The position numbers and the translations under genes were made by a program. DNA of 64,000 nucleotides from Smithella sp. PtaU1.Bin162 (GTDB taxonomy: Bacteria; Desulfobacterota; Syntrophia; Syntrophales; Smithellaceae), in the NCBI GenBank assembly GCA_002068015.1, contig MVRV01000038.1, positions 1 through 64,000 on the forward strand. Direction: 5' to 3'. Positions 34,017 through 35,750 of this stretch are shown one piece after another. Each line of letters starts with the position of its first letter. The stretch's first letter is position 1. The notes beneath the pieces are model-generated. The model did no database searches and was not told the origin of the DNA. It saw nothing but the letters and a program-made list of their open reading frames with translations.

Positions 34017-34045
34017 TTGACAGAACCGACAAATTGTGTTTTTAA
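34017..34045 (+). promoter_or_regulatory. Candidate promoter of the dapA leader transcript
   Basis: A perfect -35 TTGACA is at 34017-34022. Seventeen bases later the sequence TTTTAA is only a weak -10 match. A start near 34052 would include the leader ORF at 34074. Confidence 0.45.
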
Positions 34046-34073
34046 GGCCAAACAGTATTCAAACAGGATAATT

Positions 34074-34169
34074 ATGAACTTCCTCTCTATAAGCAGAAGA
34101 AACACGGGTAAGAAGCGGGGCATAAAGCGCATGGGGCTACCCATCGGTTTGAGGACGTGTATGCGTTAA
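34074..34169 (+). CDS. Putative 31-residue leader peptide upstream of dapA
   Basis: An ATG behind CAGGATAATT opens a 31-codon ORF ending at TAA 34169. The peptide is basic: R-R at residues 8-9, K-K-R at 13-15 and K-R at 18-19. Codons 20-23 (ATG GGG CTA CCC) lie in a segment that can pair with the terminator stem downstream (CATGGGGCTACCC 34130-34142 with GGGTAAGCCCCATG 34202-34215, 13 pairs with one bulge). A ribosome waiting at the Lys codons would leave that segment free and so prevent termination. This fits attenuation of a lysine-pathway gene. Translation is not proven. Confidence 0.5.
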   Translation: MNFLSISRRNTGKKRGIKRMGLPIGLRTCMR

Positions 34170-34193
34170 TGCCTGTAAAATATACCATCCTTT

Positions 34194-34223
34194 AAAGCCA
34201 TGGGTAAGCCCCATGGCTTTTTT
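34194..34223 (+). terminator. Leader terminator (attenuator) upstream of dapA
   Basis: AAAGCCATGGG pairs perfectly over 11 bp with CCCATGGCTTT around a 5-base loop, followed by a T-run. It lies between the leader ORF and dapA, 66 bp before the dapA start. There is no gene before it except the leader ORF, so it is a premature terminator for dapA. Confidence 0.8.
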
Positions 34224-34288
34224 GTTGTCCGAAATATTTCAAATTCCAATAAAATTTAACCATGTCACTAAAACAGAAAGGAAAACAT

Positions 34289-35194
34289 ATGCAGATACAA
34301 TCCTGGGCCGGATGCCATATACCCATCATTACGCCCTTTAAAGACGACCTGTCGATCGACGAGGCAGGATTGCGCAAACTCGTTAATTATTACATTGAAG
34401 AAGTTGGGTGTGACGGTCTCGTTCCCTGCGGAACAACCGGCGAATCGCCCACTCTGGACAACCATGAACATACCCGGGTAATTGAAATTGTAGTTGATGA
34501 AACCAAAGGGCGCGTGCCGGTCATGGCGGGAACTGGCTCCAACAGCACGAAAGAAGCCATAGAAATGACAAAGCATGCCGAAGACCTTGGAGTCTCGGCA
34601 AGTTTACAGGTATGTCCCTATTACAACCGGCCCACACAAGACGGGCTCATGAAACATTTCGAAGAAATTGCAAAGTCCACAAAGCTGCCGCTTTTTATTT
34701 ACAACATTCCGTCCCGAACGGCACGACTTATTGAAGCAAAAACAATGATTGCACTTTCCCAAATGGACAATATCATCGGAATGAAAGACGCCTGCGGTGA
34801 TCTCGCGATCACAATGGAAATTATCCGGGCTACACGAATGAGTCCAAAGAAATTCTATGTTCTTTGCGGAGAAGATGCGCTCACGTATCCGATGCTTGCT
34901 TTAGGCGGGGATGGAGGAATCCTGGCGGTGGCTCATGTCATCGGGAAAGAATATCGCGAAATGATCAATCTGCACCGTTCGGGAAAAGCAAGCGAGGCTC
35001 TGGAGATTCACTATAAAATGCTGCCCGTGGTAAAGGCATTATTTATTGAAACCAATCCGGTACCTGTCAAAGAAGCCTTGGCAATGATGGGGCTTCCATC
35101 CGGAAAACTCCGCTTGCCGCTTGTTCCGCTGCGCCCGGAGAATCGTGAAACCTTGCGCAATACCCTTACCCAGTTCGGATTTTTAAAGGGATAA
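34289..35194 (+). CDS. dapA: 4-hydroxy-tetrahydrodipicolinate synthase
   Basis: This 301-residue enzyme condenses pyruvate with aspartate semialdehyde, the first committed step to lysine and meso-diaminopimelate. Active-site features are in place: G-T-T-G-E-S (residues 48-53), Y-Y (111-112), the catalytic tyrosine Y138 in I-Y-N-I-P and the Schiff-base lysine K166 in G-M-K-D-A. I chose ATG 34289, preceded by GAAAGGA; an in-frame ATG nine codons earlier is possible. The preceding leader ORF and terminator suggest regulation by attenuation. Confidence 0.93.
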   Translation: MQIQSWAGCHIPIITPFKDDLSIDEAGLRKLVNYYIEEVGCDGLVPCGTTGESPTLDNHEHTRVIEIVVDETKGRVPVMAGTGSNSTKEAIEMTKHAEDLGVSASLQVCPYYNRPTQDGLMKHFEEIAKSTKLPLFIYNIPSRTARLIEAKTMIALSQMDNIIGMKDACGDLAITMEIIRATRMSPKKFYVLCGEDALTYPMLALGGDGGILAVAHVIGKEYREMINLHRSGKASEALEIHYKMLPVVKALFIETNPVPVKEALAMMGLPSGKLRLPLVPLRPENRETLRNTLTQFGFLKG

Positions 35195-35233: not shown

Positions 35234-35280
35234 AGATACGCAACAACAATAACCGAGACCTTTGCATAATTTCCCTATTC

Positions 35281-35372
35281 GTCATTCCGGGCTGAGGCTC
35301 CGGCGAATGCCGGATGACCCGGAATCCAGGAAGTCCTTCATAATACTGGATGCCGGCTTCTGCCGGCATGAC
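35281..35372. repeat. REP-type palindromic repeat pair
   Basis: Two palindromes of the GTCATTCC..GGAATCCAG class lie head to tail: 35281-35329 with arms GTCATTCCGGG and CCCGGAATCC, and 35346-35372 (CTGGATGCCGGC..GCCGGCATGAC). A related palindrome occurs at 47894-47922. A REP-associated transposase is 1.1 kb away. Confidence 0.7.
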
Positions 35373-35750
35373 AAAATTGCTGGTTTTATGTGATTGTGCA
35401 AAACCCTCTAACCGGCAACTGCATGTTTTTCCTTGCATTCTTTTAAGAAGTAGTATTATTCGTGGAACTCAAGTTTCAGAAATTGAATCCGGCGTATGCC
35501 GGACGAAGTGAACTGAAACTTTTAAGTTGAATTATCCCCGAAGCATAGCGAATGGGGATCATGTCATATCTTAAACAAGTCTTATTCAATAATTATGAAA
35601 TGTTAATAGGAAGCCAGAAACTGATATTTCAACGACCCCAATTATATTTTGTAAAAAAAGAAAATCATTAAACGTGTTCATAGTCATAAAAACAAAACCC
35701 ACTGAAAAGCTGGTTCTTAATAATTCGCTCTCGATAATCAATTGTAATAA

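Follow-up and report, generated by a model that had tools for sequence, protein, structure and literature searches.

A predicted lysine-sensing transcription attenuator upstream of a second, stand-alone dapA gene in Syntrophales

The window analysed here is a whole stretch of 64,000 nucleotides from a 3.6-Mb genome (G000:C38), and its positions 34017-34289, directly 5' of a dapA gene that we call dapA2, hold a leader with all of its parts on the + strand. The leader begins with a predicted promoter-like pair, TTGACA ... TTTTAA with a spacer of 17 (34017-34045), of which the TTGACA box was read directly at 34017-34022. A Shine-Dalgarno sequence, AGGA (34065-34068; AAAGGAAAGTTGATG and similar in relatives), precedes a leader ORF of 31 codons and a TAA (34074-34169; MNFLSISRRNTGKKRGIKRMGLPIGLRTCMR) that starts with the ATG at 34074 and stops at 34167-34169. 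The ORF includes region 1 (codons 2-4, 34077-34085), the tandem codons Lys13-Lys14 (34110-34115), the Lys18 codon (34125-34127) and the whole of region 2 (codons 19-28, 34130-34157), which forms the 5' arm of a putative antiterminator, so that region 2 ends before the stop codon; Lys13-Lys14 are about 15 nt upstream of the antiterminator. Region 3, the antiterminator 3' arm (34188-34215), takes in the 5' arm, the loop and part of the 3' arm of a predicted intrinsic terminator (34194-34223), with an 11-bp stem AAAGCCATGGG/CCCATGGCTTT (34194-34204/34210-34220), the loop TAAGC and six T residues (34218-34223). A preliminary description had listed the TTGACA element, the 31-codon ORF and the 11-bp terminator with its T-run upstream of dapA, and all of these were read directly where it had placed them.

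The gene behind the leader (dapA2, 34289-35194, + strand) encodes a 301-aa 4-hydroxy-tetrahydrodipicolinate synthase and is therefore a member of the lysine pathway. Its product scores 338 bits against TIGR00674, the NCBI dapA equivalog model (cut-off 206), and its nearest solved structures are DapA/dihydrodipicolinate synthases (2yxg, E 3e-83). The earlier naming of the gene as dapA holds on these grounds, with two refinements. The start at ATG 34289 is better placed than that at 34262, because it is conserved in relatives and has its own Shine-Dalgarno sequence. A paralogue, DapA1 (G000:C69), is 44% identical to DapA2, and its gene is clustered with arg-like genes and one like dapB, neighbours that were named by inspection of their sequences; as read here, dapA2 is the second, stand-alone paralogue, and the main operon copy is the other dapA. 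On the 3' side of dapA2, a repeat-like stretch (CGTCATTCCGG...GCCGGCATGAC; 35270-35390) resembles those commonly found dispersed in genomes of this sort.

Fourteen genomes have the element directly 5' of this dapA paralogue, 11 of them Syntrophales and three from another family of the same phylum. A first covariance model, built from six leaders and searched against 155 genomes of the class, returned 11 strong copies (E <= 2e-24), each directly upstream of a dapA2 orthologue. Three more distant leaders (G274, G370 and G210), 5' of dapA2 genes 73-77% identical, were recovered by a second covariance model in a search of the phylum (two copies) and by a protein search of their order (one copy). 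Orthologues of dapA2 that are 76-85% identical occur in two genera of the same family and in one genome of another family, and the named records among them are Syntrophus, Syntrophaceae or deltaproteobacterial MAGs. The genes flanking leader and dapA2 vary from genome to genome, and the upstream gene is not conserved, so that leader and dapA2 travel as one unit. In G053, a Syntrophales genome, dapA2 lacks the leader, which counts against the explanation favoured below. In other families, DapA orthologues at 64-71% identity had no such leader upstream. The final 200 bases 5' of a dapA2 orthologue at 65% identity (L160, G180) contain a terminator, AAAGCCACGGG..CCGTGGCTTTTT, and a short frame, MAHIKRGKHNSGK, that has no stop before the terminator and may be a decayed or a different attenuator. 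Weak covariance matches (E 1e-5 to 1e-2) were rejected as extra copies; those inspected were attenuators of trpB, leuA, oxidoreductase and DAHP synthase genes with the same style of terminator. In another family of the phylum, an FGWWYF leader 5' of a DAHP synthase-like gene (L135 1380-1900, reverse strand) is a possible aromatic attenuator.

Comparison of the copies indicates that the ORF is maintained as a coding sequence. Its frame is open in 14/14 leaders (29-32 codons), with start and stop intact in every copy. The TTGACA box and an AT-rich, -10-like element also precede the ORF in most homologues and are absent in G014. Lys13, Lys14 and Lys18 never vary among the 14 leaders, although their codons alternate between AAA and AAG. 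The preliminary description had proposed to follow the reading frame and the Lys codons in near relatives, where loss of the frame beside a conserved RNA structure would have overturned the attenuator reading; both were retained in the 13 homologues, the Lys codons with synonymous change. When the 11 Syntrophales leaders are compared in pairs over codons 12-19, 72% of the codon differences are synonymous in the ORF frame, as opposed to 1% and 10% in the other two frames, and none of 2000 column permutations reached so high a share. The ORF had been described as rich in Lys and Arg codons, and here the two residues part company: codons 8-9 are Arg-Arg in this copy and in two relatives and Lys-Lys in most others, and for this reason the signal conserved across the aligned leaders is Lys, not Arg. 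In the distant family the residues near the Lys codons are altered (E in place of G16, a second Lys at 19), and each leader has 5-7 Lys. Gly12, too, never changes; sensing of Lys would not by itself call for this, and it counts against the favoured explanation. Among the 11 Syntrophales copies, codon 20 (34131-34133) reads ATG, TTG or GTG and has G-rich sequence 8-10 nt before it. Translation might conceivably start at this internal codon, although a chance effect of the pairing constraint is more likely.

Two mutually exclusive RNA folds are conserved, in the classical 1:2 / 2:3 / 3:4 layout. In the terminating fold (RNAalifold consensus), a small hairpin is enclosed by the pairing of codons 2-4 with codons 26-29, and the terminator forms on its own; the match of region 1 to codons 26-29 is a perfect 9 pairs in relatives such as G002 and has one mismatch here. 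In the alternative fold the partner of codons 20-28 is the terminator together with the stretch just ahead of it. A pairing of 34130-34142 with the terminator had been proposed, and such a pairing exists, but the 13 pairs given for it were too few: the antiterminator has about 24 (34131-34155 with 34188-34214), including TTTGAGGA with TCCTTTAAAG, upstream of the terminator. In the antiterminator alignment 92.2% of cells are paired, compared with 36-58% after a shift of one arm by 1-3 columns, and pairing was also above that of a shuffled control, which is to be read with the relatedness of the sequences in mind. The check for covariation recommended at the outset gave five antiterminator pairs altered on both sides; in G003, for example, region 2 has changed from GGGGCT to GGGGAA and the terminator loop has changed along with it. 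The terminator stem is kept in 14/14 leaders, with both-side changes in G003 and G150.

Switching between these folds was calculated by folding each leader with a ribosome-sized mask on it and computing the probability of the terminator. With the mask at K13, terminator probability was <=0.03 in all of the 11 Syntrophales leaders but G002 (0.53), and with the mask at codon 22 it was >=0.99 in 11/11. The model thereby reproduces the behaviour first proposed, in which a ribosome stalled at K13/K14 blocks the terminator and a moving ribosome allows termination. A scan with a narrower mask again placed the boundary near codons 17-19, although G002 and G151 were less clean, as was G003 at codons 10-12 and 16. 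When the transcript was ended before the terminator 3' arm (kinetic window), a ribosome at Lys18 gave a region 2:region 3 pairing of 0.56-0.99 in 14/14 leaders, while one at codon 22 or 26 left hardly any; since a ribosome at Lys18 would release region 2 to region 3 before the terminator is complete, each of the three invariant Lys codons can act. Dinucleotide shuffles of three leaders reproduced the switch in 0/200, 0/200 and 1/200 cases. Equilibrium folds without a ribosome favour the antiterminator in most of the 11 Syntrophales leaders, the window copy included, and full repression would therefore have to rest on kinetics or on a following ribosome. In the window copy, a ribosome on the stop codon did not restore the terminator at equilibrium (P 0.00) but did hinder the pairing of region 2 with region 3 in the kinetic window (0.18). 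The three distant leaders prefer the terminator at equilibrium almost throughout, and the switch appeared only in the kinetic-window calculation, weakly in G370.

Taken together, the parts of the leader, their conservation, selection at the level of codons, covariation and calculated switching argue from sequence that this is very probably a transcription attenuator of the classical, ribosome-mediated kind, which senses charged Lys-tRNA and controls the stand-alone dapA2; promoter use, translation of the ORF, stalling, a lysine signal and the direction of control would all follow from this reading, in which the earlier interpretation as an attenuator is supported and largely right. When lysine is plentiful, the ribosome would trail RNA polymerase past codons 13-18 and cover region 2 (codons 19-28), so that the terminator would fold and transcription would end before dapA. 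When Lys-tRNA is short, the ribosome would wait at Lys13/Lys14 (or Lys18) and leave region 2 free to pair with the emerging region 3, which would absorb the terminator stem and allow dapA to be transcribed. Without translation, region 1 could pair with region 2, favouring termination.

The same RNA switch would follow if the peptide itself arrested the ribosome, with GKKxGIK stalling it on a small molecule and not on a lack of Lys-tRNA; TnaC and SpeFL are arrest peptides that stall the ribosome in response to a small molecule. The conservation of Gly12 as an amino acid beyond the Lys codons would fit this idea, as would that of Gln/Arg15, Gly16 and Ile/Val17 within Syntrophales. In the distant family, however, positions 15-17 are P/R/Q, E and F/V, and what has been retained there is the Lys residues and one Gly alone, with further Lys gained. 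As the conservation towards the C terminus is explained by RNA pairing, and tandem Lys codons before a Lys-pathway gene fit a simple codon model, we regard peptide arrest as unlikely. An attenuator that senses Arg, or amino-acid shortage in general, could be suspected from the window copy, in which Arg is frequent (R8, R9, R15, R19, R27 and R31), but most relatives have Lys-Lys at codons 8-9 and an Arg count of 0-2, Lys13/14/18 never change and the controlled gene is that for DapA, so that Arg sensing is hardly credible.

The conserved secondary structure might instead be that of a ligand- or protein-binding RNA (a riboswitch or an RNA-protein attenuator) in which the ORF arises by chance. A search with all Rfam models, the result of which had been named beforehand as able to overturn the attenuator reading, gave no match for the leader at the gathering threshold and chance matches only at a relaxed one. 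The T-box leader model (RF00230) had no match in the window at either threshold. The leader had also been described as unlike the lysine riboswitch, and in agreement with this the RF00168 covariance model matched nothing in the window or in 30 relatives, while the control was detected in 4 known genomes. Together with the strong in-frame synonymous pattern and the intact start and stop of all copies, these searches make a binding RNA very improbable. Lone terminator hairpins are common between genes, and the simplest account would be an ordinary terminator of the upstream transcript beside a chance ORF, with no regulation. To this we give next to no weight: the leader accompanies dapA2 into unrelated neighbourhoods where the upstream gene is not conserved, and shuffled sequences almost never reproduce the switch.

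Sensing of Lys-tRNA by the dapA2 leader would place it beside other attenuators of the same build in this genome. These lie 5' of trpB (NNNNWWWQ) and leuA (Leu-rich), before an acetolactate-synthase-like gene, ilvB (LVLVVVL), and before the gene for a 2-oxoacid:ferredoxin oxidoreductase subunit (Leu/Val-rich leader), the controlled genes being named by eye from their sequences. Elsewhere in the genome (L150 1400-2000, G000:C146), a Tyr-rich NRNYYGYYYYYTVAYRSARH and a terminator lie 5' of the gene for an ABC-type substrate-binding protein, a possible Tyr attenuator of a transporter. The dapA2 and Leu-type attenuators have in common, at an equivalent place, a switch core CCCRTCGNTTTNAGG ... CCTNAARGCCATGGG, which in region 2 of dapA2 reads CCCATCGGTTTGAGGA (34140-34155). 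The pattern CCCRTCGNTTTNAGG ... CCTNAARGCC occurs in 33/155 genomes of the class and never reversed; examples are L175 (G000:C175:3458-3505) and L166-L195, with Leu-rich leader ORFs, and Rfam gave no match for the core loci L172 and L175. The best core match falls at the same place in 14/14 Lys leaders, with scores of 7.6-21.7; shuffles of one leader scored a median of -11.9, a 99% point of 0.5 and a maximum of 9.9. A shared origin of the Leu and Lys leaders is plausible and is put no higher because a common terminator sequence forces a similar partner. Like the dapA2 leader, the core leaders that were read, before leuA or the oxidoreductase subunit gene of Syntrophales, are rich in their cognate codon; they differ in having Leu codons in place of Lys and the core in a different frame of the leader ORF. 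A tentative proposal, which we put a little below an even chance, is that the attenuator is a module in Syntrophales with one core and an exchanged sensor (Leu for leuA and the oxidoreductase, Lys for dapA2), the Lys attenuator being a re-coded Leu attenuator and the first case in which a leader peptide governs the diaminopimelate route to lysine.

Control of the diaminopimelate lysine pathway at the RNA level has been ascribed to riboswitches, lysine genes being listed under L-box riboswitches and His, Thr and Phe under attenuators (PMC1262725). The L-box (RF00168) likewise controls lysine-pathway genes, often by termination, but has no sequence or structure match to the dapA2 leader, which has a conserved ORF. 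A codon-reading attenuator appears to serve in a group without the lysine riboswitch among the 30 genomes tested, and suggests how a second dapA stays in reserve. Our literature search found no lysine leader-peptide attenuator of dapA. The dapA2 leader is nevertheless not the first lysine case, since the main lysine cluster of Thermus thermophilus is reportedly controlled by leader-peptide attenuation with Lys codons (Tsubouchi et al. 2005, J Biol Chem); lysine is made there by the alpha-aminoadipate and not the diaminopimelate route, and the phylum differs from that of the dapA2 leader hosts. The kind of element is known; its occurrence with this amino acid, gene and group together is, as far as shown, new in the literature searched. 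Leaders that share a core and read Lys or Leu lend themselves to tests of how a switch of this sort comes to read another amino acid. The closest classical parallels are the trpL, hisL, leuL, thrL and pheL attenuators of Escherichia coli, which likewise combine a short leader ORF with tandem cognate codons, 1:2 / 2:3 / 3:4 folds and an intrinsic terminator. In trpL the distance from codons to antiterminator is about 15 nt, as it is here. In contrast to the E. coli attenuators, the cognate amino acid of the dapA2 leader is lysine, the gene is dapA and the stop codon is downstream of region 2, and a lysine case would thereby join a mechanism for which trp, his and leu are the usual teaching examples.
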